Shown here: in pieces, positions 19,654 to 43,142 of the stretch
How the letters are laid out: each line of letters opens with the position of its first letter
Position numbering within the stretch: position 1 is the stretch's first letter
Assembly (NCBI GenBank): GCA_002841695.1
Contig: PHAN01000014.1
Location: forward strand, 1 to 43,396
Direction of reading: 5' to 3'
Length of the DNA stretch: 43,396 nucleotides
Source: Elusimicrobia bacterium HGW-Elusimicrobia-1
GTDB lineage: Bacteria > Elusimicrobiota > Endomicrobiia > PHAN01
Notes under the pieces: model-generated
What the model saw: only the letters and a program-made list of their open reading frames with translations
Told to the model about the DNA's origin: nothing
The model's database searches: none
Position numbers and translations under genes: made by a program

Positions 19654-19665
19654 AGCGTTTGAAAA

Positions 19666-21367: not shown

Positions 21368-21408
21368 GAAAAACCGCAAACGCGCCTAAAAACAACCGGC
21401 GATTCGTC

Positions 21409-21554: not shown

Positions 21555-21560
21555 TACTAT

Positions 21561-28734: not shown

Positions 28735-29388
28735 TTATTTATTTTCCGCCTGATTTTTCCCCGTCTGATTGAACACAAGAATCGCGTGGCGGCACTTGGG
28801 GCAATTTACCTGAAATAAATCCTGACGGCGAACCGCTCCGGTGTCGATGGAAACGCCGGCTACGCCCTTGGTATTTAAAATATTCCGCCCCAAAAGTTCG
28901 TTGAGTCCGAAATTCGCCGACGATAGCGGGCCGAGACGCCCGGCTATCCATTCGAGATGACGGCGCGACGAGAGGATTTCGCCGCAGTTGTCGCAGACGA
29001 CAAGTTCCTTCTCGACGGAGGCGCGCATCTTGGAGCGGTCCACGCCCGATAGGTCGAACTCCAGGTTAAGTTTGACGCCGCAAACAGGGTCGTTGCGGGT
29101 TGTGCAGTAACGCTCGCACTGACCGCAAAAAATACATTCGTCATAGCGCCATTCCATCACACGCGAAGGTGTCTGTGCGCCGGACACTTTCTCTATGACT
29201 TTTATGGCTCCGGACGGACAGACCTCGGCGCACGCGCCGCAGGCGATGCAGCCCTCGTCGCTCGGCGCGGGACGGCCCCTGAAACCTTCGGGCGGGGTAT
29301 GCGGCTCCGCCGGAAATTTTGTGGTGACCGGACCCTTTATCAGGGCGGTTATCGCTTCTTTAAGTTCTCTGAGTTTTGGATATTTCAT
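28735..29388 (-). CDS. NuoI/MbhN-like 2[4Fe-4S] subunit of the membrane hydrogenase
   Basis: The 217-residue product carries two [4Fe-4S] motifs, CIACGACAEVC (47-57) and CIFCGQCERYC (85-95), as in NuoI, MbhN and HyfH. A C-terminal extension of about 100 residues has CDNCG (132-136) and CPKC (196-199), a zinc-ribbon-like pair seen in HyfH/HycF-type subunits. It would connect the ferredoxin side to the NuoB-like cluster. It lies far from the other hydrogenase-core genes, beyond mrpG and a 170-bp repeat, and just before pycB. Function in the complex is inferred from family and locus. Confidence 0.82.
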   Translation of the reverse strand: MKYPKLRELKEAITALIKGPVTTKFPAEPHTPPEGFRGRPAPSDEGCIACGACAEVCPSGAIKVIEKVSGAQTPSRVMEWRYDECIFCGQCERYCTTRNDPVCGVKLNLEFDLSGVDRSKMRASVEKELVVCDNCGEILSSRRHLEWIAGRLGPLSSANFGLNELLGRNILNTKGVAGVSIDTGAVRRQDLFQVNCPKCRHAILVFNQTGKNQAENK

Positions 29389-29397
29389 AGTTTATAA

Positions 29398-29567
29398 GTA
29401 ACGAGAATTAAACACCCCGTCCCGATAAATCGGGACACCCCTCTACAAGAGGGGAATATTCCCCTTTGTTAAAGGGGTGTCAACGAAGTTGACGGGGTAT
29501 TTCCCTTTTGTAAAAGGGGTGGCTCGCCATAGGCGAGACGGGGTATCCCCCTCATTACGCATTACTA
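29398..29567. repeat. Long multi-hairpin intergenic repeat, copy B
   Basis: Near-identical and in the same orientation to copy A at 26819-26990, with a few single-base differences. It includes the same string of hairpins and the same CATTACGCATTACTA end. That end supplies the TAG stop of the mrpG-like gene. Copies A and B bracket the pycB and NuoI-like genes. Confidence 0.92.
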
Positions 29568-29888
29568 ATTCTGTTTTTCATATTCATCGCAGACGGTTTT
29601 TTCCCAGAGTTTCACGCCGGACTTATGGGCGGCGCGGGCCATCGCGTGCGCCGTGACGGGCGCCGTCAAAAGAAGAAACACCAGACACAGAAGCGCCTTG
29701 ACCCCGGCGGCCGTAAAACCGCTCAGGATAAATACTCCCAGAAGAATGCCGCAAGTGCCCAGCGTGACAGATTTCGTCGACGCTTGCAGACGCGTGTAAT
29801 AGTCGGGGAAACGCATCAGCCCGAGGCAACCCAGCAGATTGAACATAACTCCGACGACTATAAAAAATTTGCCCAGAAACTCAAACAT
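29565..29888 (-). CDS. mrpG: MrpG/MnhG-like (MbhC-like) antiporter subunit
   Basis: The 107-residue product has three hydrophobic helices and the MrpG pattern LGCLGLMRFPDYYTRLQASTK (about residues 19-38), with KALLCLVFLLLTAPVTAHAMARAA in the third helix. It is a small subunit of the Na+/H+ antiporter module. An AGAGGGA ribosome site precedes the ATG. The stop codon lies within repeat copy B. Confidence 0.92.
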   Translation of the reverse strand: MFEFLGKFFIVVGVMFNLLGCLGLMRFPDYYTRLQASTKSVTLGTCGILLGVFILSGFTAAGVKALLCLVFLLLTAPVTAHAMARAAHKSGVKLWEKTVCDEYEKQN

Positions 29889-29941
29889 TGTTTTTCCCTC
29901 TGACGGACTTCGTTATTTGAAAACGTTGAAAAGCTGTCCAA

Positions 29942-29996
29942 ATGTCACCCTGAGCGAAGCGAAGGGTCTCGTTTGTCGTCGGAATCAGAATGACAA
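29942..29996. repeat. Short intergenic repeat, GTCACCCTGAGCGAAGCGAAGGGTCTC type
   Basis: The gap between the mrpF- and mrpG-like genes contains TGTCACCCTGAGCG followed by AAGCGAAGGGTCTCG and, further on, AATCAGAATGACA, giving imperfect inverted ends. The core ACCCTGAGCGAAGCGAAGGGT has pairing ends (ACCCT / AGGGT). It resembles the repeats at 10.97 and 19.56 kb in style but not in sequence. Confidence 0.6.
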
Positions 29997-30031
29997 ATGC
30001 CGCGACGCTTTCTAAAATATCCGGAGCGCCG

Positions 30032-30379
30032 TTACTCGTCGAACTTCTTGCCTTCCAGATATTTGGCCAGAGCCAGCATTCCTATGAAACTCTGCAGCGC
30101 CCACGCTATGGCTATGTCAAGATAAAAAGATTTGCGCGTGGTCACATACAGCATCGCGCAGAAACCGATTATGACAAGACCTATTATGTCGGTGGCCAGA
30201 GCTCTGTCGGGCGCGGTCGGACCCGCGATAACGCGCACAAGCGCAAGAAAACAGCAGAGCAAAAGCACTCCGGAGAATTTTGCGGCCAGGGTATAGGAAG
30301 GCATTACCCAGAAAACCGCGACAGCTATCACGGACGCATACATCAGAATAAGTTTAAGTCCCGCCAGACGGTCTTTCAT
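30032..30379 (-). CDS. mrpF: MrpF/MnhF-like (MbhB-like) antiporter subunit
   Basis: The 115-residue product has three hydrophobic helices and the MrpF signature VRVIAGPTAPDRALATDIIGL (about residues 47-67). The start is ATG 30379, overlapping the mrpE stop (ATGA). A longer in-frame opening that runs upstream lies inside mrpE and is not used. It is part of the small-subunit set of the antiporter module. Confidence 0.92.
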   Translation of the reverse strand: MKDRLAGLKLILMYASVIAVAVFWVMPSYTLAAKFSGVLLLCCFLALVRVIAGPTAPDRALATDIIGLVIIGFCAMLYVTTRKSFYLDIAIAWALQSFIGMLALAKYLEGKKFDE

Positions 30380-30870
30380 TCGAAGACCTCGATTATTATT
30401 TTCTCGAATTTTTCCACTACCCGACGGTACGCCTCTTGGCCGTCGCAGGACGGCGCGTTTATCCAGTGGATAAAAAGATGTCCCGCGTCCAAATCGGCGT
30501 CGACGGTAATAGTCCCCGGAGTCAGCGTTATAAAATTGGACAGGAACGTTATGCCCGTTTCCGTTTTGCATTTCGTGCGGACTTTCAGTATCGCGGGTTT
30601 AAGCGGCATTCCGGGATGAAGCACGCGCATGGCCATATCCAGATTGGCTTTTACGCACTCGAAAACGAAGACCGCCAGAAACTTGAAAAACATAGCGAAG
30701 CGCCGCCACTGCATGAACTTGGACGGATTTTTCGTCCAATCGGTCTTAAAGGTCAAAGAGACCGCGCCCGCCACCGCCGCTCCGACGGCCAAAGAAACCG
30801 GCGAGAGCGTAAACGTAAGCAGTATCCACGCGACGAAAAGTGTCAAGAATATTATTATTCTGTTTCCCAT
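30376..30870 (-). CDS. mrpE: MrpE/MnhE-like (MbhA-like) antiporter subunit
   Basis: The 164-residue product has two N-terminal hydrophobic helices, then the MrpE patterns ECVKANLDMAMRVLHPGMPLKPAI and TLTPGTITVDAD, and a C-terminal cytoplasmic domain (HLFIHWINAP). It is a Mrp-type antiporter subunit with a C-terminal soluble domain. It overlaps the mrpD stop (TAATG) and mrpF start. Confidence 0.92.
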   Translation of the reverse strand: MGNRIIIFLTLFVAWILLTFTLSPVSLAVGAAVAGAVSLTFKTDWTKNPSKFMQWRRFAMFFKFLAVFVFECVKANLDMAMRVLHPGMPLKPAILKVRTKCKTETGITFLSNFITLTPGTITVDADLDAGHLFIHWINAPSCDGQEAYRRVVEKFEKIIIEVFE

Positions 30871-32354
30871 TATTTTATCACGTCGGAAGCGTATCCGATT
30901 CCTCTTAAAAGAACGGCGGCGGCCGGTTGTATGAGCGCGTCGCGCACCACCGGATAGAAAACTCCCAAAAGCACGCAGGCCGAAGCCAGCGCCATCATCG
31001 GGAGCGTCATCGACAACGGCGCCTCTTTCACCGACGAAAGATTCTCTTTCGTCTTGCCCCAGAATATGTGCTTCTGGACTTTAAGAAAAATCGCCAGGGT
31101 AAACACGCTCACGACGGCCGCAATCGCTCCTGCAAAATATTTACCGGCCTGAAACGCCGCTATAATAATTATGAACTTTGACCAGAAACCGTTAAGCGGC
31201 GGCACGCCGGAAATTGCCAGCGAGGCCGTAAGGGACGTAGCGCCGGTTACGGGCATTTTGGCGGCCAGCCCTCCGGCGGATTTCAGGTCTCTCGTCGAAG
31301 CCGAGTATTCGACCGCGCCTGCGTTCAGAAAAAGAAGCGACTTGAACATCGCGTGGTTTACCAGATGATACAAACCGCCGACTATGCCAAGAGGCGTTCC
31401 CAGTCCCAGGCCAAGGGCGATATAGCCGACCTGGCTGATGGTCGAGTAAGCCAGCAGACGCTTAAAGTCCCACTGTCCCAGGGACATAAGGACGCCGACT
31501 ACCATCGAAAGCGGCCCGACAAAAAGCAGTATGTTCGACATAAATCCGGCGAAGGGCGCCACGACGGTGAATATCCTGGCCAGGGCATAGAGTCCGGTAA
31601 CTTTTATTATTACACCCGAAAGAAGCGCCGACACCGGAGCCGGCGCGGACGAGTGTACGTCCGGAAGCCACGCGTGGAACGGAACCATTCCGGCTTTAAG
31701 CAAAAGTCCCACGGCAAAAAGCGCGGCGGCGAAAGGCACGGCGGGCGAATATCCGCGCGCGGCCATAACCGCGGCGACGTCGGCCAGATTGAGCGTGCCG
31801 GAGTACGAATATATCACGGCAATGCCCATCAGTATAAAGGCGGAGGCGGTGGAGCCGAGCACGACGTACTTAAACGACGCTTCCAGTTGGTCGCGCTCCA
31901 ACCCGAAGGCCGTCAGCGCGTAGGTCGTTATCGACGCCAATTCGATGAACACGAACATATTAAACAAATCGCCGGAAAGAGCCAGCGCGTTTATGGCCCC
32001 GAGCATTACATTGAACAAAGCGTAATATTTGGCCGGCGCGGTGTAGGACTTCATGTAGCCGATGGAATAAACCGCCGCGGCAGCGGCCACGAAGTTGGCC
32101 GCAAGTATAATGAGCATGGAAAGTCCGTCGAGAACCCACACAACGCCCAGGGGCGCCGGCCATCCGCCGAAGGTATATACCACGGCTTCCGGACCACGGA
32201 CAAAAAAAACATAGACGGACAGCGCCAGCAGCGCCAGCGGAGACGACACGCCGATTATCTCGGCGAACTTTCTTCGCGCGCCGTGCGCGGCGGCAAGAAG
32301 AAACGCCGCGGCAAGAGGCGCCGCCAAAAACAGAGTGAGCAATCCGGGTTTCAT
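30870..32354 (-). CDS. mrpD: MrpD/MbhH-like large antiporter subunit (proton-conducting transporter family)
   Basis: The 494-residue polytopic product has the antiporter core: NMFVFIELASITTYALTAFG, LLKAGMVPFHAWLPDVHSSAPAPVSALLSG (channel helix with conserved Lys and His), KRLLAYSTISQVGYIALGLGLG, and AISGVPPLNGFWSKFII. It is homologous to NuoM/NuoN and MrpD. It is one of three large channel subunits in this locus; this one is closest in context to MbhH because it follows the mrpC-like gene. Confidence 0.92.
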   Translation of the reverse strand: MKPGLLTLFLAAPLAAAFLLAAAHGARRKFAEIIGVSSPLALLALSVYVFFVRGPEAVVYTFGGWPAPLGVVWVLDGLSMLIILAANFVAAAAAVYSIGYMKSYTAPAKYYALFNVMLGAINALALSGDLFNMFVFIELASITTYALTAFGLERDQLEASFKYVVLGSTASAFILMGIAVIYSYSGTLNLADVAAVMAARGYSPAVPFAAALFAVGLLLKAGMVPFHAWLPDVHSSAPAPVSALLSGVIIKVTGLYALARIFTVVAPFAGFMSNILLFVGPLSMVVGVLMSLGQWDFKRLLAYSTISQVGYIALGLGLGTPLGIVGGLYHLVNHAMFKSLLFLNAGAVEYSASTRDLKSAGGLAAKMPVTGATSLTASLAISGVPPLNGFWSKFIIIIAAFQAGKYFAGAIAAVVSVFTLAIFLKVQKHIFWGKTKENLSSVKEAPLSMTLPMMALASACVLLGVFYPVVRDALIQPAAAVLLRGIGYASDVIK

Positions 32355-32363
32355 CGTAACGCG

Positions 32364-32699
32364 CTATCCTTTGAGGTTTTTTATTTCGGTAATGTCGAAA
32401 GTTCCGTGCTTTTCGTAAATTCTTAATGCAATCGCGGCGGCCATCGCCAAAACTCCCAGATCAATGACAATGGCCGTAAGCACAATGGCCTGCGGAAGCG
32501 GGTCCACAAAGTTCGCCGCTTCTCCGGCGGAAAAAATCGGAGCCGTGGCGCCGGTTTTATATCCTATCAATACAAAAAACAGATTGACCGCGTACGTAAA
32601 TATCGCCAGGCCTATGATTTTTTTTACGATATTCTTTTTTATCAGGACTCCGTAAAGCCCTATGCCGAAAAGAATGAAAACGAGTATGTAGTTTATCAT
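32364..32699 (-). CDS. mrpC: MrpC/MbhG-like (NuoK-like) antiporter subunit
   Basis: The 111-residue product has three hydrophobic helices and the family pattern LFGIGLYGVLIKKNIVKKIIGL, then DPLPQAIVLTAIVIDLGVLAMA (about residues 67-88). The NuoK/MrpC fold provides part of the ion path. It overlaps mrpB (ATGA) and precedes mrpD by 9 nt. Confidence 0.93.
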   Translation of the reverse strand: MINYILVFILFGIGLYGVLIKKNIVKKIIGLAIFTYAVNLFFVLIGYKTGATAPIFSAGEAANFVDPLPQAIVLTAIVIDLGVLAMAAAIALRIYEKHGTFDITEIKNLKG

Positions 32700-33145
32700 T
32701 TTTTATTCGCGCCTTCGCCGGCAAAAAAAGTCATGGCGGTAAATATCGCAAAAAGCCCGCCCATCACTTTAAGCCCGATGGCCATATTGTTTATTATCAC
32801 CGTGCCGCCGCTCATAAACTCAAAAGGCGTTCCCGCGGCCAGATAATTTTTGAAAAAATAACCCGCGGCAAGTCCCGAAATACCAACCGCAAGAAATGCC
32901 AAAGCGCCCGCGCCTTCCAGAACTTGCGCGCCGGCAAACGTCAACTCTTTTACGGCGGTTTCGCGGCCGTAGGCCAGCATCAAATGAACCACGGCAAGGG
33001 CCAGCATTACACCTCCGGCGAAACCTCCGCCGGGCGTAAGATGTCCGTGCAGAATGATGTAGACGCCGAACAGAAAAATAAGGCGCACCGTCAGGCGGGT
33101 GATGGTTTTTACGATAACCGACATTCCGGCCGATTTGGGCTCCAT
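32696..33145 (-). CDS. mrpB: MrpB/MbhF-like antiporter subunit
   Basis: The 149-residue product has four hydrophobic helices and the MrpB pattern HGHLTPGGGFAGGVMLALAVVHLMLAYG (positions about 29-56). It is the stand-alone MrpB domain. It starts at ATG 33145, which overlaps the upstream stop (TGATG). Confidence 0.93.
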   Translation of the reverse strand: MEPKSAGMSVIVKTITRLTVRLIFLFGVYIILHGHLTPGGGFAGGVMLALAVVHLMLAYGRETAVKELTFAGAQVLEGAGALAFLAVGISGLAAGYFFKNYLAAGTPFEFMSGGTVIINNMAIGLKVMGGLFAIFTAMTFFAGEGANKK

Positions 33146-33681
33146 CAGTCCTTCTCCTGGCGCGGTTTCATTCCGGTTTTGCGCATTATGGCCGCGACGG
33201 CCACGGCGGCGGTAAAAAGCACGGTCGCTTCGCCGAGTGTGTCTATCGCCCTGAAATCAAGAATTATGGCCGAAACAGCGTTGGCCGCGCCGACTTTATC
33301 CAGCGTGGATGCGATATATTCCGAAGATACTTTCATAAGCGGCGAGCCGAAAGCGGGAAGATGAGCCAAAGCTATGGCCGCAAAATATATAAGCGTGCCT
33401 ATGGAAAATACGGCCACAAGAACCAGAGCGGCGGCGCGGGTTCCCGTCATCCTGGTTGTGTCTCTTTGCACGGTGGCTCTTATAAGAATGATGAGGGCCA
33501 GAATCTCGACGACTATCTGTGTGATGGCCAAATCGGGAGCGCCCAGCAGCAGGAATATCACACTGAGTCCGTAACCGGCCACGCCGACGGCAATCACGCA
33601 CGAGAGGAGGTCTTTGAGCTCAAGCGCTACGATGCTTCCTATGGCTATAAGAGCGATAATCAGCGTTATTTCCATATTCAT
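33145..33681 (-). CDS. MrpA C-terminal-like subunit (MbhD plus MbhE fused)
   Basis: The 178-residue product has about five hydrophobic helices. The first half is MbhD-like (LLSCVIAVGVAGYGLSVIFLLLGAPDLAITQIVVEIL), and the second half is MbhE-like (AIILDFRAIDTLGEATVLFTAAVAV), the pair that in classical Mrp sits in the C-terminal part of MrpA and in Mbh is two proteins. In this locus it is one separate gene between the 629-residue channel subunit and mrpB. Confidence 0.85.
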   Translation of the reverse strand: MNMEITLIIALIAIGSIVALELKDLLSCVIAVGVAGYGLSVIFLLLGAPDLAITQIVVEILALIILIRATVQRDTTRMTGTRAAALVLVAVFSIGTLIYFAAIALAHLPAFGSPLMKVSSEYIASTLDKVGAANAVSAIILDFRAIDTLGEATVLFTAAVAVAAIMRKTGMKPRQEKD

Positions 33682-33706
33682 AATTTTTATGCTCCGGCAA
33701 CGGCGG

Positions 33707-35596
33707 TTATCTTACCAGAATCCACAATATGGCCGCGGCTCCGACGAGGTACCACGACAGATAAACGTAAAGGTCTCCGGTATGCGCCAGACGAAAAACG
33801 AATATTATTCCTTCTACGGCCTTGACGAAGAAAAGCTGCAAAAGATATATGACTCGCTCCACGCCGTAGTAAACGGCCGACGAAACCGCCGCGATGGTTT
33901 TCATTATCAAAGAGTAAAAACCGCCGTCGCGGCCCGACGGAGAATAGACGGCGGAAAGCCCGCTAAGTTTCTCGACGGTCTTATAGAAATCCCCGCCGCC
34001 GAACACGTACTCGGGGCGATATTCTTCGCCGCCGAAAAATATGTCGGTGCGACGGATGCGTCCGGAAATCTTAAACTGGTAAAGCGCGACGCCCGCAAGA
34101 ACCGCGGCTATTGCCATAAGCAGCGCGGCGAATGACGTCTCCACGAGCATGGGCAACCCTATGTAAAACGTGGCTCCCACACCAAGAAACACCGAGGCCG
34201 CCGCAAGGGTTATCTGAGGAATCCGCAGGGCCAATTCCGAGTCGACACGGCGTTCGACGCTTTTTGGGGCGGGTTCGCCGTCGTCTTTTACGGCGGGGCG
34301 GGCCAAAAATACGGAGTGAATCACTTTAAGAAAACTCGCAAGGGTAAGAGACGAACCGGCCATCGCGACAAACAGCGCTATGAGCACGTAACGGTTTCCC
34401 GCGAGCGTGGATGCCGTAAGTAGCCCTTGAAATATCAGCCACTTCGACACGAACCCGTTGAGCGGCGGAACGCCCGATATGGCCAGAGACGATACAAGCA
34501 TAGAGCCGAAAGTCGCGGGCATCTTCGACGACAAAGAGCCCAGACGCGACATTTCCGTGGTGCCCTTGGCTTTTTCAACAACGCCTGCGCCCATAAAAAG
34601 TCCCGACTTATACACCACGTTGTTGAACATATGGAACACGCCGCCCAATATGCCTATGGGGTTGAAAGTCGCCACGCCCAGAATCATATAGCCGACCTGC
34701 GAAACGCTGTGATAGGCAAAAAGTTTTTTCAGGTCGTGCTGGGCAAGCGCTTTAAGAACCGAGATAATAAGTGTAAGAGCTCCGGCGATCATAAGCGCCG
34801 GCTGAAAAAATTCCGCGCGGTCGCGCAGGGCGGGAAGCACCCGCATTAACAGATAAATTCCCAGCGCCTTGTCTATTATCGCCGGAAATAATATGAGCGT
34901 TTCCACCGACGACGTCGAGGACGCGCGTATAATCCAGTTGTGAAACGGCATTGCGCCGGTCTTGGCCACCGCGCCGAAAACTATAAGCGCCAGAGAAATC
35001 ATTGCCAGTTTGCCTTCGGGCAGACGGGCTACGGCCAAAGTGACGTCGTAAGTCCCCGACAAGCGCGCGATGAGAGCCACGCCCAGAAGCATCGCAAAAT
35101 CCGACAGTCCCAGCACAATCAAAGCCCGCTGCGCCGTGGGCTCGTCGGTATCCTGAAGAACCAGATAGAGCACCGCCAGCACCGCGCCCCAGAAAACCAG
35201 CATCGTGAAAAAATCACCGGCGGCTAGCGCGCCCGAAGCGGCCGACGCGGCGAGAAGATACAGCGCCATACTTTTCTTGCCGGCGACGGCGGAGGCGTAA
35301 ATGAAGAACACGAAGAATGCCGCCGACATAAGAACGCCGAATATGGCCGCAAGAGAATCTATCCGCATACTGAAACCGCCCGCTACCGGCAGCGGATGCG
35401 CCGACGGCGGAAGCCATCCGGACGCAAACTCAAAGACCGTCGGTGTGGCGGCGAATATCACGGCGGCGGCAAGAGCCAGAAATGAGGCGTAGACGGCCGT
35501 TATGCCTCGGGCTTTGCGCCACGAAGATGGCATAAGAGCCGCAGCCAGAGCCGCCACGGCGGTGACCGTCGGTATTATAAGAACGTATCCGCTCAT
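33707..35596 (-). CDS. NuoL/HyfB-like large antiporter subunit with long C-terminal extension
   Basis: The 629-residue polytopic product has the channel motifs FGAVAKTGAMPFHNWIIRASSTSSVETLI, KKLFAYHSVSQVGYMILGVA, FHMFNNVVYKSGLFMGAGVVEKA and AISGVPPLNGFVSKWLIF. A C-terminal extension of about 150 residues follows residue 480. It includes a polar stretch with Gly/Tyr-rich sequence (FGGGDFYKTVEKLSGL) and at least two more hydrophobic helices, of the kind that forms lateral helices in NuoL-type proteins. It is the second large channel subunit and has no counterpart in P. furiosus Mbh. Confidence 0.87.
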   Translation of the reverse strand: MSGYVLIIPTVTAVAALAAALMPSSWRKARGITAVYASFLALAAAVIFAATPTVFEFASGWLPPSAHPLPVAGGFSMRIDSLAAIFGVLMSAAFFVFFIYASAVAGKKSMALYLLAASAASGALAAGDFFTMLVFWGAVLAVLYLVLQDTDEPTAQRALIVLGLSDFAMLLGVALIARLSGTYDVTLAVARLPEGKLAMISLALIVFGAVAKTGAMPFHNWIIRASSTSSVETLILFPAIIDKALGIYLLMRVLPALRDRAEFFQPALMIAGALTLIISVLKALAQHDLKKLFAYHSVSQVGYMILGVATFNPIGILGGVFHMFNNVVYKSGLFMGAGVVEKAKGTTEMSRLGSLSSKMPATFGSMLVSSLAISGVPPLNGFVSKWLIFQGLLTASTLAGNRYVLIALFVAMAGSSLTLASFLKVIHSVFLARPAVKDDGEPAPKSVERRVDSELALRIPQITLAAASVFLGVGATFYIGLPMLVETSFAALLMAIAAVLAGVALYQFKISGRIRRTDIFFGGEEYRPEYVFGGGDFYKTVEKLSGLSAVYSPSGRDGGFYSLIMKTIAAVSSAVYYGVERVIYLLQLFFVKAVEGIIFVFRLAHTGDLYVYLSWYLVGAAAILWILVR

Positions 35597-36993
35597 AATA
35601 TCCTTGAGAGTATTCCGGTCGGAAACTTAATCAGCAATCCGAGCGCCAGCGATATTACGCCGAAAACCGCCACGACAAAAACCATCGAGGCGGAACCTTC
35701 GCGGGCGCTCGTTGCGGCTTCGCCGGCCTCGCCGGTGAATACCTGTCTGTAGAACCTGAATATGTAATACATCGTCATTACGGCGGCGGCAAGAAGAAAT
35801 ACCGCCGAATAAAATCTGTGGGAATCAAGCGCGGCGGATATCACGGCATACTTGGCAAAGAATCCGACCGTAGGAGGAATGCCCGCCACCGATAGAGCGC
35901 AAATTATGAAAGACGCGTCCGTGTAAGGCATTGTTTTCTTCAATCCCCCCAGACGTCTTATGTCCTTGACGCCGAGAGTGTGCTCGACGACGCCGGCGGC
36001 AAGAAACAGTCCCGCCTTGGCAAAGGAATGAGCCATTATATATATGAAACCCGCGGCGACGGCGGTTACCGTGTTAAGCGAAAAAGCAAAGATAATGTAG
36101 GCAAGCTGCGACATAGTGGAATATGCCAGTATTCTTTTTATGTCATTCTCTTTGGCGGCGGCGGCGGCCGCTACGATGGCCGTGACCACCGATGCAATCG
36201 AGACGAAAGACGCCACGGCGGGATCAAGAGTCATAGAGGCGTTGAAAAATCTCCAGAATGCGTAGGCGCCTATCTTAACCAGCACGGCCGCGTGGAGCAG
36301 CGCGGTAACCGGAGTCGGCGCGACGCCCGCGTCGGGAAGCCACAAGTGCAGAGGCAGCTGCGCCGATTTGGAAAAAATACCCGCTATTATCAAAAGGGAA
36401 GCCGCCGTGCCTACGCGGTAATCCCTCAGAGCCGCCAGAGAAAACGTTCCGGTTGCCGCGTATATCAGCGCTATACCCGCAAGCATAGCCACGGCTCCGA
36501 CGGAGGTTATCATAAACGCCTGATTGGCCGCGACAAGGTGCTTTTCCTGTCTGCGTATGCCTATGAGCCGCCAGGAACACACGGCGGTCAACTCCCAGAA
36601 AACGTAGAGCGCAACCAGATGGTCGGAAAATACGAGCCCCATCATAGAACCCACAAAAACCAGAAATAAGAAGTAGAACTCGCCGAGGTCGTCGGCGCCG
36701 GCCATATATCCGTGCGAATACAAGGCGATGAGCAAACTCACCGTTAATACCGTCAGCGCCATAAAAAACGCGAAGCCGTCGACGGCAAAAACCGCAGAGG
36801 CGCCGAGACGGGAAGCAATCGAGGAAGATACGACAAAACTTTCCGTGGAAAACAGCCGCACACCCATCGCCAAAGCGGCGGCGAGCGAAACGAAGGCGGC
36901 GGCGCTCTTCAGCGAGCGCGGAAGCGCGGCCGCAAGTATCGCGCCGGCAAAAGGAATCGCCAGCCAGAGTAGGAAAATATTACCGTTTATCAT
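35593..36993 (-). CDS. NuoL/NuoM/MrpD-like large antiporter subunit
   Basis: The 466-residue polytopic product has LYVFWELTAVCSWRLIG, GIFSKSAQLPLHLWLPDAGVAPTPVTALLHAAVLVKIGAY (channel helix), KRILAYSTMSQLAYIIFAF, MAHSFAKAGLFLAAGVVEH and VAGIPPTVGFFAKYAVI. It is the first large channel subunit after the hydrogenase core, which ends about 210 bp upstream across a nested repeat. It overlaps the 629-residue subunit gene by 4 nt. Confidence 0.88.
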   Translation of the reverse strand: MINGNIFLLWLAIPFAGAILAAALPRSLKSAAAFVSLAAALAMGVRLFSTESFVVSSSIASRLGASAVFAVDGFAFFMALTVLTVSLLIALYSHGYMAGADDLGEFYFLFLVFVGSMMGLVFSDHLVALYVFWELTAVCSWRLIGIRRQEKHLVAANQAFMITSVGAVAMLAGIALIYAATGTFSLAALRDYRVGTAASLLIIAGIFSKSAQLPLHLWLPDAGVAPTPVTALLHAAVLVKIGAYAFWRFFNASMTLDPAVASFVSIASVVTAIVAAAAAAKENDIKRILAYSTMSQLAYIIFAFSLNTVTAVAAGFIYIMAHSFAKAGLFLAAGVVEHTLGVKDIRRLGGLKKTMPYTDASFIICALSVAGIPPTVGFFAKYAVISAALDSHRFYSAVFLLAAAVMTMYYIFRFYRQVFTGEAGEAATSAREGSASMVFVVAVFGVISLALGLLIKFPTGILSRIL

Positions 36994-37006
36994 AATTTAC
37001 AAATAT

Positions 37007-37196
37007 GTCATTGCGAACTCGCCCCACTCTTGTCATTGCGAGAATCTCACAGAAATCGTCATTCCCGTGTAAACGGGAATCCAGAAATTTTTGCAACATG
37101 TTGAAATACTGGATTCCCGATAAAAGCATTCGGGAATGACAAACCAAAAAACGAGATTGCCACGGTCAAAGGCAAGCCCTTGACCTCGCAATGACA
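37007..37196. repeat. Palindromic intergenic repeat, GTCATTGCGAG type, copy 3, with a nested element
   Basis: The outer ends GTCATTGCGAAC (37007) and CTCGCAATGAC (to about 37196) match copies 1 and 2, with an additional internal GTCATTGCGAG near 37032. Inside, at about 37058-37140, sits a second palindrome, GTCATTCCCG...CGGGAATGAC with GGGAATCCAG / CTGGATTCCC arms, so one repeat family has been inserted in another. It separates the hydrogenase core genes from the antiporter genes. Confidence 0.9.
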
Positions 37197-37205
37197 AAAT
37201 AAAAA

Positions 37206-38411
37206 TCATCGTGAGCCGTTTTCTTCAAGAATCCTGAATGTCTTTTCCTGCGACAACTTTACGAGGTCGTCGCCGTTGAAAATTTTCGTGCCGCCGCGGA
37301 CGACCGACACGCGCTCGGTGCAGCAATAGCAAGGGTCTACGGCCGCAAGACACAGCGCGGCGTCTGAAATCGTCTGCTGGAGCGCGGATTTTTCGTTCGT
37401 GGGCACGTTCATAAAACTCGGAGCGCGTATCTTGTGCCTCACGGGACGGTTCGTGCCGTCGGAGCGGATGTAATGGAATACCTCGCCGCGCGGCGCCTCG
37501 TGACGGCCTATGCCTTCGCCCGGAGGAACGTTTTTAACTTCCGTCTCGACAGGTCCGGCTTCGGTTTTGAGGCGTTCGAGACATTGATTTATTATTTTGA
37601 CCGACTCGTACATCTCAAGAACTCTGACGACGAGTTTGTCGAATATATCGCCGTTTTGGCATACGATAACCTTAAAGTCCACCATCCCGTAAGCCGCGTA
37701 GGGGTCGTCGCGGCGCACGTCGATGTCGACGCCGGAAGCGCGGGCAGTCGGTCCGACGGCGGAATAATTTATGATGTCCTCTTTCGTAAGAATTCCCACG
37801 CCTTTGGTGCGAAGGTGAATCGTGGGGTCGTCCATAACCGCGCCCTTGAACATATCCAGCACGGGCACAAGGCCTTTGAGCGCGCTAATAAACTCGTCTA
37901 TTTTGGCCGGCGGGATGTCGCGCCTTACGCCGCCTACTTTAAACATAGCGTAATGCTGACGGTTTCCCGATATCATCTCAAGAATATCGCAGACGGTCTC
38001 GCGGTGTTTCCACGACCACATCCACACGGTGTTGTATCCCAGAAAATGTCCGGCCAGGCCCAGCCACAGAAGGTGCGAGTGAATTCTTTCGAGTTCCCCT
38101 ATGACGGTGCGGATAAGTTTGGCTCTCGTCGGGACGTCGAGACCCATCGCGTCTTCGACGGTATTTACAAAAGCGAACGGATGGCTCGTGGAACATATCC
38201 CGCAGATTCTCTCGACCAGAAACACCGCCTGGTCGAAGGTTTTGGACTCGGAGAGTTTTTCTATCCCGCGATGGTTGTAACCTATCTCGATGTCGAGCTG
38301 CTTGACTATTTCGCCCTCGACGTGCAGACGGAAAAACTCCGGCTCCTCTTGCAGAGGATGATAGGGGCCTATGGGAACTACGGTTCTGAGGCAATCTTTA
38401 TTTTGAGTCAT
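37206..38411 (-). CDS. mbhL: Group 4 [NiFe] hydrogenase large subunit (MbhL/NuoD-like)
   Basis: The 401-residue product retains all four [NiFe] ligands: RICGIC (C70 and C73) and DPCYCC (C361 and C364). It also has the NuoD/MbhL patterns EIGYNHRGIEKL, RTVIGELERIHSHLLWLG and APRGEVFHYIRSDG. It ends with 37 residues after the last ligand, resembling Mbh-type large subunits (VSVVRGGTKIFNGDDLVKLS). It catalyses reversible H2 formation. It overlaps the NuoC-like gene by 14 nt. Subgroup (4d-like or other) is inferred from motif and context, not from a tree. Confidence 0.93.
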   Translation of the reverse strand: MTQNKDCLRTVVPIGPYHPLQEEPEFFRLHVEGEIVKQLDIEIGYNHRGIEKLSESKTFDQAVFLVERICGICSTSHPFAFVNTVEDAMGLDVPTRAKLIRTVIGELERIHSHLLWLGLAGHFLGYNTVWMWSWKHRETVCDILEMISGNRQHYAMFKVGGVRRDIPPAKIDEFISALKGLVPVLDMFKGAVMDDPTIHLRTKGVGILTKEDIINYSAVGPTARASGVDIDVRRDDPYAAYGMVDFKVIVCQNGDIFDKLVVRVLEMYESVKIINQCLERLKTEAGPVETEVKNVPPGEGIGRHEAPRGEVFHYIRSDGTNRPVRHKIRAPSFMNVPTNEKSALQQTISDAALCLAAVDPCYCCTERVSVVRGGTKIFNGDDLVKLSQEKTFRILEENGSR

Positions 38412-38844
38412 TTTGGTTCTGCCTTAATGGATATTCGCCCTGCGGCCAGTCGTCGGCAAGAAGCAACCGCTTCAAATCCGGATGGCCTTTGAAATCCACG
38501 CCGAACATCTCGCAAATCTCGCGCTCTATCCATTCAAACGCTTTGGCCACCGGAGCCAGCGACGGCATTTCGGGTTTTTCCCTAGAACCGGCGAATACCC
38601 TGAGCGTTATGACGTCGCCGGTTTTATCGTCGGAAAAATGGTACAGAATCTCTATGTCGTGTCTCGTGTCTATGGCGGTTGCTATGGAAAATCTCAAGCC
38701 CAGAGAGGAGAACATATAACGCGCCATATCCTCAAGCGACGCTTTGTCTATGTCGATGTACCAGCGCCGGGCGTTCTTTTTAAACGTCTTCTTTATCAAA
38801 GACGCCTTTTGGGCCAGTATCGTATCAAGCGCTCGTTCGCTCAT
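38398..38844 (-). CDS. mbhK: NuoC/MbhK-like hydrogenase subunit
   Basis: The 148-residue product has the NuoC signature WIEREICEMFGVDFKGHPDLKRLLLADDWPQGEYPLR in its last 40 residues (about 106-143). The subunit supports the NuoD-like subunit at the quinone or catalytic cavity. It overlaps the neighbours on both sides (ATGA with the NuoB-like gene, 14 nt with mbhL), consistent with a tightly coupled core operon. Confidence 0.92.
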   Translation of the reverse strand: MSERALDTILAQKASLIKKTFKKNARRWYIDIDKASLEDMARYMFSSLGLRFSIATAIDTRHDIEILYHFSDDKTGDVITLRVFAGSREKPEMPSLAPVAKAFEWIEREICEMFGVDFKGHPDLKRLLLADDWPQGEYPLRQNQNDSK

Positions 38845-39260
38845 TTTTTTCCTTCCAAAGCGGCTATCAGTTTGGCGACGCCCGCGATCATCGCTTCCGG
38901 CTTGGGCGGACAGCCGGGGATGTAAGCGTCCACGGGGATTATTCCGTCGAGCGGGCCCACTACATTATAAGAATCGTGGAACATCCCCAGTCCGCAGGCG
39001 CAAGTTCCCACCGCCACCACGAAACACGGCTTGGCCGCGGCGTCGTAAAGTTTTTTTATCCGCGGCGCGGTCTTTCTGTTGGGAACGCCCGTAACCAGAA
39101 GAACGTCGGCGTGGCGCGGACTGCCCACGAGCTGAATGCCGAACCGCTCCAGGTCAAAACGCGGCGTGAGGCAGTCGAGTATCTCGATGTCGCAGTTATT
39201 GCACGGGCTTGTAGCCGCGTGAAAAACAAAAAGTGATTTGGTAAGGTGCTGCGGTTTCAT
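38841..39260 (-). CDS. mbhJ: [NiFe] hydrogenase small subunit (NuoB/MbhJ-like)
   Basis: The 139-residue product keeps the four ligands of the proximal [4Fe-4S] cluster: CNNC (C20 and C23), GTCACG (C87) and PGCPPKPE (C117), as in NuoB and MbhJ. It passes electrons to the NiFe centre. No Shine-Dalgarno is visible upstream of ATG 39260 because a heptad repeat abuts the start, so initiation may rely on upstream translation. Confidence 0.93.
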   Translation of the reverse strand: MKPQHLTKSLFVFHAATSPCNNCDIEILDCLTPRFDLERFGIQLVGSPRHADVLLVTGVPNRKTAPRIKKLYDAAAKPCFVVAVGTCACGLGMFHDSYNVVGPLDGIIPVDAYIPGCPPKPEAMIAGVAKLIAALEGKK

Positions 39261-39264
39261 AGTT

Positions 39265-39338
39265 AAAGTGGTTAGTGATTAGTGGATAGTGATTAGTGGT
39301 CTTTACTATCCACTATCCACTCGCCACTATCCACTGTC
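39265..39338. repeat. Inverted heptad-repeat element 1 (AGTGGNN units)
   Basis: On the - strand the region reads as 7-bp units: AGTGGAT AGTGGCG, AGTGGAT AGTGGAT, then inverted units ACCACTA ATCACTA, TCCACTA ATCACTA, ACCACTT. Two opposed arrays of heptads meet in a short centre. It lies between the NuoH-like gene and mbhJ and abuts the mbhJ start. Confidence 0.85.
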
Positions 39339-39343
39339 CTTGC

Positions 39344-40249
39344 TCAATATCCCGCCAGCGCAAGCATTACCGCGACGGCGCCGGTTCCTATTCCTATCGT
39401 CCACATAAGCTTTATCGCGTGGTCTATGCGGAAGCGCGGATTGGTATTCCTGACCAGAGTAAGCAGGAGAACAACCAGCGGATATTTTACCAAAAGCCAA
39501 AGATTTCTCGACGGGAAAAATAACGCCACGGCAAAAATCGGAAGCGCGGACAAAAGAATCGTCTTTGAGAGTTTATGAAAAGCAAGAAGCGGCCCTGAGT
39601 ACTCCATATAAATGCCGCCGGCCAGTTCGGTTTCGGCCTCGGCCATATCGAAAGGAACCATACCGAGTTTGGCCATAATTACAACCAGAAAAGCCGCGAA
39701 AGCCAGTATTCCCGACGGAGAGGATATGATGGCGCCCGATTCGACCTGGCGCGCGACCATACCGGCCAGTGAAACCGACCCCGTCTTTATAATGGCCGTT
39801 ATCAGCGCTAAAATAAACAGCGCTTCGTAGGCGAGCATTAATTTGATTTCGCGCGACGCACCGACCGACGACAGCGGATTTTCCGACGCCAGCGAACCGG
39901 CCACTGTCGCTATCGACGGTATCATAAGAATATAGAGCAAAAGTATTACGTCGCCGGTAAAGCCGCGCTGCAACAAAAGAGCCGAACCGATAAGGGTTGC
40001 GGCCGTTACGGAAGCGGCCAGAGCCGCCACAGGGGCGGCGACAAAAAGCCACGCCGCCTGAACGCGCGGGATGGTTATTTCCTTGGCGAAAAGTTTTCTT
40101 AAGTCGTAGTAGGGCTGAAGAAAAGGCGGCCCGACGCGATACTGCACGCGGGCGGTCACTTTTCTGTCGAACCACGACGCGAGCATTCCCAGGGCTGACG
40201 AGAAAATAAAACCCGGAAATACGATAAGAGCAAACAGCATTTCGGCCAT
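39344..40249 (-). CDS. mbhM: NuoH/MbhM/EchB-like membrane subunit
   Basis: The 301-residue product has about eight hydrophobic helices and the family signature RKVTARVQYRVGPPFLQPYYDLRKLFAKE (about residues 29-57), followed later by the acidic loop FDMAEAETELAGGIYMEYSG (about 199-218). It anchors the hydrogenase core to the membrane and couples catalysis to ion movement. It begins the core cluster M-J-K-L here. Confidence 0.92.
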   Translation of the reverse strand: MAEMLFALIVFPGFIFSSALGMLASWFDRKVTARVQYRVGPPFLQPYYDLRKLFAKEITIPRVQAAWLFVAAPVAALAASVTAATLIGSALLLQRGFTGDVILLLYILMIPSIATVAGSLASENPLSSVGASREIKLMLAYEALFILALITAIIKTGSVSLAGMVARQVESGAIISSPSGILAFAAFLVVIMAKLGMVPFDMAEAETELAGGIYMEYSGPLLAFHKLSKTILLSALPIFAVALFFPSRNLWLLVKYPLVVLLLTLVRNTNPRFRIDHAIKLMWTIGIGTGAVAVMLALAGY

Positions 40250-40308
40250 GTTTATATACCTTGCGGTCTATTTCCTGCTTATTCCTCTACTATTCGCCAG
40301 CGGCATTA

Positions 40309-40382
40309 AGAAGTGGTTAGTGGCGAGTGGATAGTGGTTAGTTTTTTTCTGCTATTCACTCGCCACTATCCACTAACCACTG
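40309..40382. repeat. Inverted heptad-repeat element 2 (AGTGGNN units)
   Basis: On the - strand AGTGGTT AGTGGAT, AGTGGCG AGTGAAT, AGCAGAA form one array, and after an A-rich centre AACCACT ATCCACT, CGCCACT AACCACT form the opposed one. The first array starts inside the 3' end of the ferredoxin gene: its Ser-Gly codons and TAG stop are read from AGTGGTTAG. Confidence 0.87.
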
Positions 40383-40864
40383 CTTTTCTCCCACACGACC
40401 GTTCTGACGGCCAGATAATCATTTATCACATAGAGATTTTTCATGGGGTCGTCGGCGGGCACTTCGGCCCACGACAATGCGTGTGACGGGCAAGCGCCCA
40501 CGCAAAAAGGCGGTTTCTCGTCGGAAGTCCTTCCGGCGCACCAGTCGCAGCCGGATGTCTTAAACGGCAGAATCTCTTCGTAAATCACGCCGAACGGGCA
40601 GGCCATGGCGCAGGATTTGCAGGACGTGCAGAGCATCGAATGGCGTTCGAGTATGCCCGACGCGTTTCTTTCGAGCGCTTTGTTCGGGCAGGATTTTATA
40701 CAGGACGCTTCCTGGCACCGGCGGCACACCAAAAACTGGCAGGCCTTGGCCATAGCGCGTTCAATGCCGTTGTTGACGGGGCTCGAGTGATAAAAATAAG
40801 AGCATCCCGCCTCGCACTTGGCGCAGGCATAGCATTTTTCGAGGTCGACAACCAGTTTTTTCAT
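40373..40864 (-). CDS. Four-cluster ferredoxin subunit (HycB/CooF/DmsB-like)
   Basis: The 163-residue product has sixteen cysteines in four groups: C11/C14/C17/C21, C47/C50/C55/C59, C79/C82/C85/C89 and C106/C109/C121/C125. This fits four [4Fe-4S] clusters, as in HycB-type electron carriers. It would ferry electrons between the HydB/HydG module and the hydrogenase core, or from soluble ferredoxin. The stop codon is provided by a heptad repeat. Partner assignment is inferred from position. Confidence 0.82.
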   Translation of the reverse strand: MKKLVVDLEKCYACAKCEAGCSYFYHSSPVNNGIERAMAKACQFLVCRRCQEASCIKSCPNKALERNASGILERHSMLCTSCKSCAMACPFGVIYEEILPFKTSGCDWCAGRTSDEKPPFCVGACPSHALSWAEVPADDPMKNLYVINDYLAVRTVVWEKSSG

Positions 40865-40876
40865 ATCAACCCTTTT

Positions 40877-40909
40877 TCACTTCCCACTTTCTGCTTTCCA
40901 CTCACGACT
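40877..40909. repeat. Half heptad-repeat element 3
   Basis: On the - strand this reads AGTCGTG AGTGGAA, AGCAGAA AGTGGGA, AGTGAAA: one array of 7-bp units with no inverted partner. AGCAGAA also occurs in element 2. It begins in the last codons of the CBS gene, whose TGA stop is read from it (AGTCGTGAGTGG). Confidence 0.7.
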
Positions 40910-41288
40910 TGTCCAATATTATCCTTATTATATCGTGGCGGCTGACTATGCCCACAACCTTATTGTCGGTGTCCGTTATGATGACACGGCGATATTTTTT
41001 CTCGGAAATCGTAAGAGAAATCTTGTCCACTTCGGAATCCGGCGAAAAAGTGACCACATTTTTTGTCATCACGTCGGAAACCTTGGTCGAACGCGCGCTG
41101 CCGGAAAAAACAAGGTTCAAAATATCATTTTCGCTGATTATCCCCACGAGTTTGCCGCTATCATCCACGACCGGCAGACCGCTGACTCTTTTGTTGTAAA
41201 GAAGATTTACGGCGTCGTATATCGTGGCGTCGGGTTGTATCGTGGTAATGTTGGTCGACATTATGTCTTTGGCTTTAAGCATATCCAT
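40902..41288 (-). CDS. CBS-domain pair protein
   Basis: The 128-residue product (from ATG 41288, with AAGGAGG just before it) consists of two CBS domains: IMSTNITTIQPDATIYDAVNLLYNKRVSGLPVVDDSGKLVGIISENDIL, then VMTKNVVTFSPDSEVDKISLTISEKKYRRVIITDTDNKVVGIVSRHDII in 20-residue-scale repeats of the same pattern. Such pairs bind AMP, ATP, NAD(H) or SAM and act as sensors. It sits between HydG-like and ferredoxin genes of the hydrogenase operon and may adjust the complex to adenylate or NAD state. The extra N-terminal residues of a longer start would overlap the HydG gene and are not needed. Confidence 0.88.
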   Translation of the reverse strand: MDMLKAKDIMSTNITTIQPDATIYDAVNLLYNKRVSGLPVVDDSGKLVGIISENDILNLVFSGSARSTKVSDVMTKNVVTFSPDSEVDKISLTISEKKYRRVIITDTDNKVVGIVSRHDIIRIILDKS

Positions 41289-41307
41289 ATCGCCTCCTTG
41301 TGGCCGG

Positions 41308-42138
41308 TCACACAAACGGGTCGCCGATGTGTTTAAGTTTGTCGTAAGTAAAAACCGGGCCGTCTTTACAGATGAAATATTCGCCTATCTGGCAATGTCC
41401 GCACTTGCCCAGACCGCAGGACATATTGGCTTCCATCGACAGATATATATCTTTAGGGTCAAAGCCCAGCGAAATCAGTTTCATCGTCGAAAACTTCATC
41501 ATTACCGGCGGGCCGCAAACCACGGCCGCGGTTTTTTGCGGATCGAATTTGGCCTTGTCAAGAAGACAGGTAACCAGTCCGACCTCGCCTTCCCAATCCA
41601 TATCGACGGGGCAAACGTCCACGCTTTTTAGAATCTCTAATCCCCTGGTCTTGTTCCATTCAGGGAAAAGATATTTATAGACGACGTCGCCGGGGGTCTT
41701 GGAGCCGTACGCCAGAATTATTTTTGTGAATTTGGAAACATCGGAAAGCAGGGTATAAAGCAAACTTCTCAACGGAGCCAGACCCACGCCGCCGCCGAGT
41801 ATGAGAACCTCTTTGCCGTGAAAAGATTCCACGGGATACGATGTTCCGTACGGCCCTCTGATGCCGAGTTTTTCGCCGCCCTTCATAGCGTGCAGACGGT
41901 CCGTGACGAAACCGGCTTTCATTATTGTGATTTCAATTTTATCGGTTTTCAGGGGAGATGAAGAAGGCGTGAACGGCGCTTCGCCGACACCCGGCACAAC
42001 CAATTCCACGAACTGTCCCGTCTTGAACGAAAACGGCTCAAGCGGTTTGATAACGAACGTTTTTATGTTGGGCGTCTCGTCGATAACACGCTCAAGCAAC
42101 GCTTCGATGGGCCGGTATATATGTTTTTTCATTTTCAT
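41308..42138 (-). CDS. hydG: HydG-like FAD/NAD(P)-binding diaphorase subunit (sulfhydrogenase gamma type)
   Basis: The 276-residue product is an FNR-superfamily protein: the FAD site has GEAPFTPSSS (52-61), the NAD(P) site LGGGVGLAPLR (114-124), and CGPPVMM (208-214) closes the fold. A C-terminal [2Fe-2S] motif has C241, C246, C249 and C257 (CGLGKCGHC...C), as in HydG of sulfhydrogenases and in PyrK. It exchanges electrons between NAD(P)H and Fe-S clusters. The start ATG 42138 overlaps the HydB stop (ATGA). Here it is attached to a group 4 hydrogenase rather than to the group 3b enzyme it usually serves. Confidence 0.87.
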   Translation of the reverse strand: MKMKKHIYRPIEALLERVIDETPNIKTFVIKPLEPFSFKTGQFVELVVPGVGEAPFTPSSSPLKTDKIEITIMKAGFVTDRLHAMKGGEKLGIRGPYGTSYPVESFHGKEVLILGGGVGLAPLRSLLYTLLSDVSKFTKIILAYGSKTPGDVVYKYLFPEWNKTRGLEILKSVDVCPVDMDWEGEVGLVTCLLDKAKFDPQKTAAVVCGPPVMMKFSTMKLISLGFDPKDIYLSMEANMSCGLGKCGHCQIGEYFICKDGPVFTYDKLKHIGDPFV

Positions 42139-43142
42139 TTCCGCGGAATGGCGCCGGAGAGTTTCTGAAGCGATTCTCTTATGTCTATTTTGCCCGGGCA
42201 AACCTCAATGCATCTGCCGCAGCCGGAACAGGCCAAAAGCCCGAAATTCTTGGGGCGATAAACAAGTTTGCACATATAATAATTTCTTAACCGCTGATAT
42301 TTCTCGCGTCGCGGGTTCGAGCCGCCGGCTACGCGTGCGTATCCGGCAGATTGGCAGGAATCCCACGTGCGCGTTTTATCCCAGAAGCCCTGCGTCTCTC
42401 CCAGAAGAAAACAATAACAACTGCCGCAGACCCAGCGACAGCCGTCGCACTCCACGCAGGTTTTGGAAATCGAGCCGTCTTTCCACAGGGTCGAGTTCTC
42501 CGAGGCGGCGACGATTTCAGAAGGTTCGCGCCAGTCAAAGCGCGAATTTTGGGCGGCGACTTTCTCGGCCACGGCGCGGCGGTTTTTTTCTTTTTCGCGC
42601 GTCTGCTGGTCGATAGCTTTCTGAAACAGGTTGGGCGACTGTCTTACGAGGTCCTCGCCGATGTTTGAGCCGCATTCCACGACGAATCCTTCGGCTATGG
42701 GCGAGAGATTGATGTCGAAGTTTTTTTCCGGCCAGGGATTAAGTCCCATTTTTACGCAAAAGCAGGTATCCTTGCAGTCGGTGCAGTCGGCGGATATCAA
42801 AAGAGTGTCGGCGCGCTTGCGCTTGTAAAAATCGTCCTCGGCGGAGCCGCCCAGAAATATGCCGTCGGAGGTGTGCAGAAGACGGATGTCGCAGGATTTG
42901 ACGCCCAAAACAGCCGAGGGAAACGGCTCGGGACTGTCGAGGACTTCCGACGGAGGAAAGAAAAACATCTTGGGCGGAATAGCGGCTCGATAACGGCCTG
43001 TCACGACATGTTCCACGGTGTCGGTGGAAAATTTGGCCCATTCGTAATCCGCGGATTTTTCCTTAAGCGCGAATAAAGACCTCGCGCTCAGCACTTTAAG
43101 GAGGAATCTCGATAGGTTTTGTCTGTTTATGAAATATTGCAT
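42135..43142 (-). CDS. hydB: HydB-like Fe-S subunit (sulfhydrogenase beta / AsrA type)
   Basis: The 335-residue product (from ATG 43142) has the HydB/AsrA layout: PPKMFFFPPSEVL (about 56-68), GVKSCDIRLLH (about 80-90), CTDCKDTCFC (120-129), CVECDGCRWVCGSCYC (229-244), and a C-terminal CSGCGRCIEVCP (305-316). The last two regions fit two [4Fe-4S] clusters. It relays electrons between the HydG-like flavoprotein and a hydrogenase. It is the first gene of the locus. Longer in-frame starts exist upstream, but HydB proteins usually begin near here. Confidence 0.87.
   Translation of the reverse strand: MQYFINRQNLSRFLLKVLSARSLFALKEKSADYEWAKFSTDTVEHVVTGRYRAAIPPKMFFFPPSEVLDSPEPFPSAVLGVKSCDIRLLHTSDGIFLGGSAEDDFYKRKRADTLLISADCTDCKDTCFCVKMGLNPWPEKNFDINLSPIAEGFVVECGSNIGEDLVRQSPNLFQKAIDQQTREKEKNRRAVAEKVAAQNSRFDWREPSEIVAASENSTLWKDGSISKTCVECDGCRWVCGSCYCFLLGETQGFWDKTRTWDSCQSAGYARVAGGSNPRREKYQRLRNYYMCKLVYRPKNFGLLACSGCGRCIEVCPGKIDIRESLQKLSGAIPRK

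Follow-up and report, generated by a model that had tools for sequence, protein, structure and literature searches.

A group 4 [NiFe] hydrogenase operon with a recurrent, putative NADH dehydrogenase arm in an Elusimicrobiota genome

The window analysed here is contig PHAN01000014.1 of Elusimicrobia bacterium HGW-Elusimicrobia-1, taken in its entirety (43,396 bp) from a genome of 2.06 Mb that is 96.9% complete. An operon-like cluster of 18 genes runs on its minus strand from 43142 to 28735, and this cluster is read, with a confidence modestly above even, as encoding an ion-translocating group 4 [NiFe] hydrogenase to which a NADH dehydrogenase (diaphorase) arm is permanently attached. Judged from gene order, trees, and conserved residues, a group 4 complex with such an arm appears to be real and recurrent, and NADH is probably its electron source. 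An earlier note on this DNA had placed a group 4 core, MrpA-C/B/C/D/E/F/G-like subunits, and a NuoI-like protein between 28735 and 43142, all of which are confirmed by the Pfam and NCBIfam models against which the members of the cluster were checked.

Recurrence was assessed on 80 loci from named records, which are the best 80 of 579 relatives, and more distant members may differ. Their record titles span 13 phyla, including Omnitrophota, Bacteroidota, Elusimicrobiota, Bacillota, Nitrospirota, Fibrobacterota, and Auribacterota, a count taken from titles that may be wrong in places for metagenome-assembled genomes (MAGs). Upstream sequence of 5 kb or more is available for 53 loci, and in 52 of these HydB, HydG, the ferredoxin, and NuoH/B/C all lie upstream of NuoD; in the remaining locus a stretch of N interrupts the scaffold, so every readable locus (52/52) carries the HydBG set. 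Relatives from the same class, among them records titled uncultured Endomicrobia and Elusimicrobia, agree: same-clade loci uncut by contig ends carry HydB–HydG–ferredoxin–NuoHBCD, some with a CBS gene in addition. The tie between hydBG and the core genes that the earlier note presupposed thus holds in the readable loci, and hydBG was not found without the core genes within the clade. A chance neighbourhood or an assembly join is ruled out by the 52/52 synteny. Two chromosome-level Omnitrophota records look misjoined: L107 has a 100-base N run in hydG (7450-7550), and in L093 the operon halts after NuoD.

The trees tell the same story. Large subunits linked to HydBG form one clade (SH-aLRT 99), set apart from those group 4 enzymes in the same class that lack HydBG. 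Group 4-linked HydG likewise separates from group 3b gamma subunits as a single clade (100/99) and bears the signature PFTPSS in 57/60 of its members; this tree was run without a PyrK outgroup, whose long branch had broken the grouping. In a broad group 4 tree the clade sits with Mbh/Hyc-type enzymes across a branch of support 100, the reference branches being long and giving no subgroup placement. Because synteny is unbroken, the large subunits form one clade, and the ligand cysteines are conserved, the arrangement is taken to be a recurrent complex and not a chance neighbourhood, and HydBG is supported as a predicted standing part of the group 4 complex. The chimeric hydrogenase that had been proposed for this locus therefore stands as a recurrent complex, but not as one unique to the locus: it belongs to a widespread clade and was noted in 2019 (PMC6349859). 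A second group 4 hydrogenase type, lacking HydBG and with DPCFSC, DPCISC, DPCLSC, or DPCVCC as its motif, occurs in the same class (L037-L041, L148-L154) and shares several genomes with the HydBG type.

Conservation of the cofactor ligands extends along the whole predicted electron path. The HydB/AsrA-like iron-sulphur subunit (42135..43142; 335 amino acids; Pfam Fer4_22, 81 bits, 1.2e-22) keeps 15 cysteines in all 55 aligned sequences, and in the HydG/AsrB-like FAD/NAD(P)-binding subunit (41308..42138, start codon inferred; NAD_binding_1 and DHODB_Fe-S_bind) the four cysteines of the [2Fe-2S] site are 100% conserved (n=60). The four-cluster ferredoxin is CooF/HycB/HydN-like (40373..40864; 163 amino acids; Fer4_11 and Fer4_7) and possesses four 4-Cys motifs, that is, 16 cysteines; its two middle clusters (eight cysteines) are 100% conserved and its outer two 66-94% (n=65). 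In the NuoB/MbhJ-like small subunit (38841..39260; Pfam Oxidored_q6), which carries the proximal [4Fe-4S] cluster, C20, C23, C87, and C117 are 100% conserved (n=74), as are the Ni-Fe ligands C70, C73, C361, and C364 (RICGICSTSH, DPCYCCTER) of the NuoD/MbhL-like [NiFe] large subunit (37206..38411; Complex1_49kDa and NiFeSe_Hases; n=79), which has a C-terminal extension past DPCYCCTER; the intact NiFe and proximal-cluster ligands that had been claimed are thus upheld across the alignments. The HycF/NuoI/MbhN-like two-cluster subunit (28735..29388; NCBIfam PRK12387 at 92 bits, below its cut-off of 204) has all eight cluster cysteines at 100% and four additional cysteines, in extra CxxC pairs, at 98-100% (n=46). 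In the MrpD-like subunit E138, K220, K251, K338, and K393 are invariant (n=53).

Distance matrices of HydB, HydG, the ferredoxin, and the core subunits correlate at 0.62-0.82, uncorrected for organism phylogeny. The nearest solved chains are the beta and gamma subunits of Pyrococcus furiosus sulfhydrogenase I (SHI) for HydB (9NEZ_B, 2.5e-32) and HydG (9NEZ_C, 6.1e-52), and the best Protein Data Bank (PDB) match of the large subunit is P. furiosus MbhL (6CFW_L). The ratio of non-synonymous to synonymous substitution (dN/dS) for the large subunit against a genus mate is 0.058, a rough value with synonymous sites near saturation, and the subunit is under strong purifying selection. In terms of known classes, a NuoH/B/C/D-like core with two Ni-Fe CxxC motifs in the large subunit marks the enzyme as group 4, and Mrp-derived subunits with an antiporter in one operon are features of Mbh. 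The diaphorase arm found in all readable loci departs from Mbh, and retention of all four Ni-Fe cysteines departs from the Mbx/Ehr proteins, which have lost them. HydBG cannot be assigned to a group 3b enzyme elsewhere, the genome holding a single HydB-family gene and a single NiFe large subunit, the present group 4 one; no group 3b enzyme was detected in it, whereas one lacking hydBG of its own would have spoken for such an assignment.

The identity of the electron donor is suggested by regulation. Rex is a repressor that senses NADH/NAD+ and leaves its DNA sites at high NADH. Clustering of upstream genes places a Rex-family gene upstream of hydB in 17 loci, mostly adjoining it, and in 16/50 loci with enough flank rex is no more than 2 kb from hydB. 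A Rex box, TTGTGAA-N4-TTCACAA with at most one mismatch, lies 300 bp or less from hydB in 16/50 loci, whereas none of 4,557 control windows drawn from these loci contains one; in L060, L078, and L121, rex is directly upstream of hydB and the box stands ahead of rex. Gene and promoter box come together as a Rex regulon in many relatives. In the class itself, the four genomes with a perfect box all have rex, and no perfect box is found in the four rex-less genomes whose upstream region can be read, the numbers being small. Three class genomes that have an [FeFe] hydrogenase carry rex about 3 kb from the [FeFe] gene and have no box at hydB. A CRP-like site was considered in place of the Rex box; Rex is preferred, as the TTGTGA...TCACAA flanks are kept and rex is often nearby, a preference that is weaker where rex is not nearby, since the CRP and Rex core motifs overlap. 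Canonical boxes upstream of hydB are seen in L042, L044, L046, L049, L050, L051, L061, L070, L081, L095, L096, and others, and rex directly upstream of hydB in L044, L046, L049, L060, L075, L078, L082, and others.

Because Rex senses NADH/NAD+ and derepresses at high NADH, this evidence, which comes from the relatives, points to NADH as the partner and to NADH-consuming H2 production as the likely direction. The exchange between NAD(P)H, H2, and ferredoxin that the earlier note envisaged is accordingly narrowed: rex genes and Rex boxes favour an NADH-linked, H2-evolving enzyme over a general NAD(P)H/ferredoxin exchange.

From these data we infer the physical assembly, electron path, direction, and ion coupling of the complex, as well as the maturation of the window copy. 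Electrons from NADH would enter at the FAD and [2Fe-2S] cluster of HydG, pass to the clusters of HydB and on to the four-cluster ferredoxin, the candidate linker between HydB and the core, and then travel through the NuoI-like clusters and the NuoB cluster to the Ni-Fe site, where protons would be reduced to H2. NuoH and the Mrp-type arm would couple this flow to Na+/H+ movement. Making H2 with electrons from NADH costs energy at standard state (about -320 against -414 mV), while at low H2 the reaction comes close to equilibrium. The membrane arm therefore probably draws on an ion gradient to drive these electrons onto protons, or else runs near equilibrium.

The hydrogenase operon shares its contig with genes of the POR (pyruvate:ferredoxin oxidoreductase) family, which lie at 3606-6078 and encode POR, TPP-binding, and POR_N subunits. 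A complete Rnf operon is present in the genome, and no [FeFe] hydrogenase was detected there. Rnf could turn ferredoxin into a gradient (and NADH), after which NADH and the gradient together could yield H2, so that Rnf and the hydrogenase might jointly form a two-step replacement for the one-step confurcating [FeFe] hydrogenase. A formate dehydrogenase was rejected as partner in this genome, in which no PF00384 (molybdopterin oxidoreductase) protein passes threshold; some other loci have one upstream.

The same genes admit other readings. An unlikely, though credible, one is a ferredoxin-driven Mbh-type pump with HydBG as a side branch, in which a common chain of clusters would let electrons pass among ferredoxin, NAD(H), and H2. 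Such a three-way hub would make sense of the NuoI-like subunit, the presumed ferredoxin dock in Mbh, being kept with all its ligands, and the POR genes in the window make reduced ferredoxin that could feed it; however, Rex control points to NADH, and the extra HydBG-less group 4 enzyme held by several class genomes suggests a division of labour.

Several observations weigh against the NADH-driven hydrogenase itself. Even with two mismatches allowed, 31/50 loci lack a box at a distance of up to 300 bp from hydB. In the window genome no Rex was detected, and no box lies in the 254 bp that can be read between hydB and the contig end, any sequence farther upstream falling outside the contig; a Rex regulon is thus a feature of the relatives and is not seen in the window's own genome. 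NAD versus NADP preference cannot be read from the HydG sequence, and no biochemistry was found in the literature for any member. Finally, HypD, HypE, HypF, and HycI went undetected in the window genome and its genus mate, and the Ni-Fe centre may therefore not be made there.

This last point was followed through 17 class genomes. HypD, HypE, and full-length HypF are together undetected in six of them (G000, G001, G002, G004, G005, G014), the search for Hyp proteins having covered these three; the six are the window's genome, its genus mate, all three genomes of one family (f2), and G004. The HycI protease is undetected in four of the six (G000, G001, G004, G014), and in the remaining two it lies beside the second group 4 enzyme. 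The other 11 genomes possess HypD and HypE together with a complete or partial HypF, and HycI in 10/11. Among the wider relatives, the cultured carrier Labilibacter sediminis CG51 (L116) has hyp genes next to the operon. The window genome thus has no recognisable HypDEF/HycI maturation set, for which an incomplete assembly is a possible cause: because hyp genes form one or two clusters in most relatives, a missing stretch in each genome could hide them. That six related genomes share the gap makes this cause less likely. No residue of the Ni-Fe site or of the C-terminal extension separates Hyp-minus from Hyp-plus genomes.

Whether the window copy is an active hydrogenase is consequently uncertain. 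It is conceivable, if rather improbable, that the window's genus and family f2 hold a [NiFe] hydrogenase with a conserved site made without HypDEF/HycI, either by a novel cofactor route or with something else held by the cysteines, the complex then being an ion-pumping NADH:ferredoxin enzyme. A related reading, in which the complex is not a hydrogenase in the window lineage and, lacking Fe(CN)2CO maturation, is a somewhat Mbx-like ion-pumping NADH:ferredoxin oxidoreductase or binds another metal at the four cysteines, is judged quite improbable. It draws on the shared absence of HypD/E/F from detection in the same six genomes, and of HycI in four, and on published accounts that Hyp proteins make the cofactor of all [NiFe]-hydrogenases (PMC12130793, PMC12134894). 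Set against it are the Ni-Fe cysteines and C-terminal extension, kept alike with and without Hyp, the low dN/dS, and the chance that clustered hyp genes fall in one gap, the window contig itself stopping just upstream of hydB.

An H2-uptake enzyme, in which H2 oxidation would reduce NAD(P)+ and the released energy would pump ions, is very unlikely: the chemistry is reversible, and transfer from H2 to NAD+ runs downhill at high H2, yet derepression of Rex at high NADH fits an NADH consumer and not a producer, and the genome, with Rnf and POR, is fermenter-like. It is scarcely credible that HydBG works apart from the complex as a soluble enzyme, such as the arm of a sulphur or sulphite reductase, and merely shares the operon, for although HydBG is about as similar to AsrAB as to sulfhydrogenase beta/gamma, it always comes first in the operon, no other HydB-family protein exceeds the cut-off in the 17 class genomes, the operon has no AsrC-like gene and so does not amount to AsrABC, and the HydG clade tracks the large-subunit clade.

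That HydB- and HydG-like subunits and a four-cluster ferredoxin open the locus is borne out, and the cautious suffix is apt: both proteins score about equally on sulfhydrogenase and anaerobic sulfite reductase models (AsrA 127 bits, cut-off 323; AsrB 200 bits, cut-off 289), and they are called '-like' because neither passes a curated cut-off. Between hydG and the core lies a gene for a two-CBS-domain protein (40902..41282; Pfam CBS x2), possibly a sensor of adenine nucleotides or energy state. It is present at this position only in some Endomicrobia-type loci (L023, L025, L028) and missing from most others; of the hydB-hydG-CBS-4xFeS-core order that had been put forward, all but the CBS gene is therefore general. 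The core is completed by a NuoH/MbhM-like membrane anchor (39344..40249; Pfam NADHdh, 7e-60) and a NuoC/MbhK-like subunit (38398..38844; Pfam Complex1_30kDa).

The antiporter arm follows. The earlier note was right that it is present, with the correction that it contains three antiporter-like subunits, all matching Proton_antipo_M: an MrpA-N/NuoL-like subunit of 466 amino acids (35593..36993), a second of 629 (33707..35596) with conserved Lys/His, and an MrpD/MbhH-like subunit of 494 (30870..32354). Interspersed and downstream are an MbhD+MbhE fusion corresponding to the C-terminal part of MrpA (33145..33681; Pfam MbhD, MbhE), MnhB/MbhF (32696..33145; Pfam MnhB), an MnhC/MbhG/NuoK-like protein (32364..32699; Pfam Oxidored_q2), MnhE/MbhA (30376..30870; Pfam MNHE), MrpF/MbhB (30032..30304; Pfam MrpF_PhaF, start inferred from the domain), and MnhG/MbhC (29565..29888; Pfam PhaG_MnhG_YufB). 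The number of antiporter-like subunits varies: it is two in the majority of loci, three in the window and those closely related to it, and one or zero in a few; the MrpA-N/NuoL-like subunit is missing from most relatives. Four compact operons (L027, L029, L066, L119) have one antiporter subunit or none before NuoI and lack the Mrp small subunits. Elsewhere in the window, a riboflavin operon (ribD-ribE-ribBA-ribH) occupies 16745-21557 with an FMN riboswitch (21406-21557) ahead. A viral contig scan came back empty.

Group 4 hydrogenases are seen as pumps driven by ferredoxin, formate, or CO and as kin of the enzyme from which complex I arose. Were the NADH-driven reading true, a complex I-like machine would directly join NADH to H2 and to an ion gradient through an NADH module unlike that of complex I, and many uncultured fermenters could get rid of NADH by making H2, with no need of a confurcating [FeFe] hydrogenase. 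Genomes with no detectable Hyp genes would in turn offer a sharp test of the universality of the known cofactor pathway. The Rex tie and the maturation gap, in which the cofactor pathway may be absent from the window lineage, are possibly the new findings here and also the most interesting ones.

Parts of the gene set have been noted before. Matheus Carnevali and colleagues (2019; PMC6349859) describe an 'enigmatic' group 4 hydrogenase in Saganbacteria RX5A, with Mrp, cooF, asrA, asrB, and a molybdopterin oxidoreductase, and relatives in Zixibacteria and Omnitrophica. The group 4 core, Mrp, cooF, asrA, and asrB are shared with the present operon, but no molybdopterin oxidoreductase (PF00384) was detected in the window genome, whereas L044 and L046 have one. 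Genes for an FdhA-like molybdopterin protein, a MobA-like protein, and FdhD stand just upstream of rex-hydB in L044 (588-5134), L046 (786-5176), and L049 (358-4901), and a second HydB lies beside the FdhA-like genes in L044 and L049; the FdhA-like genes upstream in these three loci suggest a formate-linked version. For Omnitrophota and Cloacimonadota, the accessible text of PMC8542988 treats Mrp-linked enzymes of group 4g as ordinary Mbh for redox balance; phyla and Mrp linkage are in common, whereas the HydBG arm and Rex control are not described in that text. A published NPL-UPA2 genome is reported to have no known hydrogenases, but Mrp genes and a HydB (PMC6305446); an NPL-UPA2 MAG (L047) carries the present hydrogenase core. 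Within this partial coverage of the literature, no account was met of Rex control, of the spread across the clade, or of the missing maturation genes.

Among solved enzymes, P. furiosus soluble hydrogenase I (group 3b, 9NEZ) supplies in its beta and gamma subunits the nearest relatives of HydB and HydG, but SHI is soluble and NADPH-linked, has the group 3b alpha/delta pair, and shows a PIS-type motif where group 4-linked HydG has PFTPSS. P. furiosus Mbh (group 4d, PDB 6CFW) likewise combines a NuoH/B/C/D/I-like core with an Mrp-derived antiporter arm; it takes ferredoxin as donor and has no HydBG, no four-cluster linker, and one MrpD-kind antiporter where the window has three. In E. coli FHL-1 (PDB 7Z0S), a four-cluster HycB-like protein joins a peripheral oxidoreductase to the group 4 core, just as is proposed here; the peripheral arm of FHL-1 is a formate dehydrogenase, whereas in the present complex it would be an NADH diaphorase.

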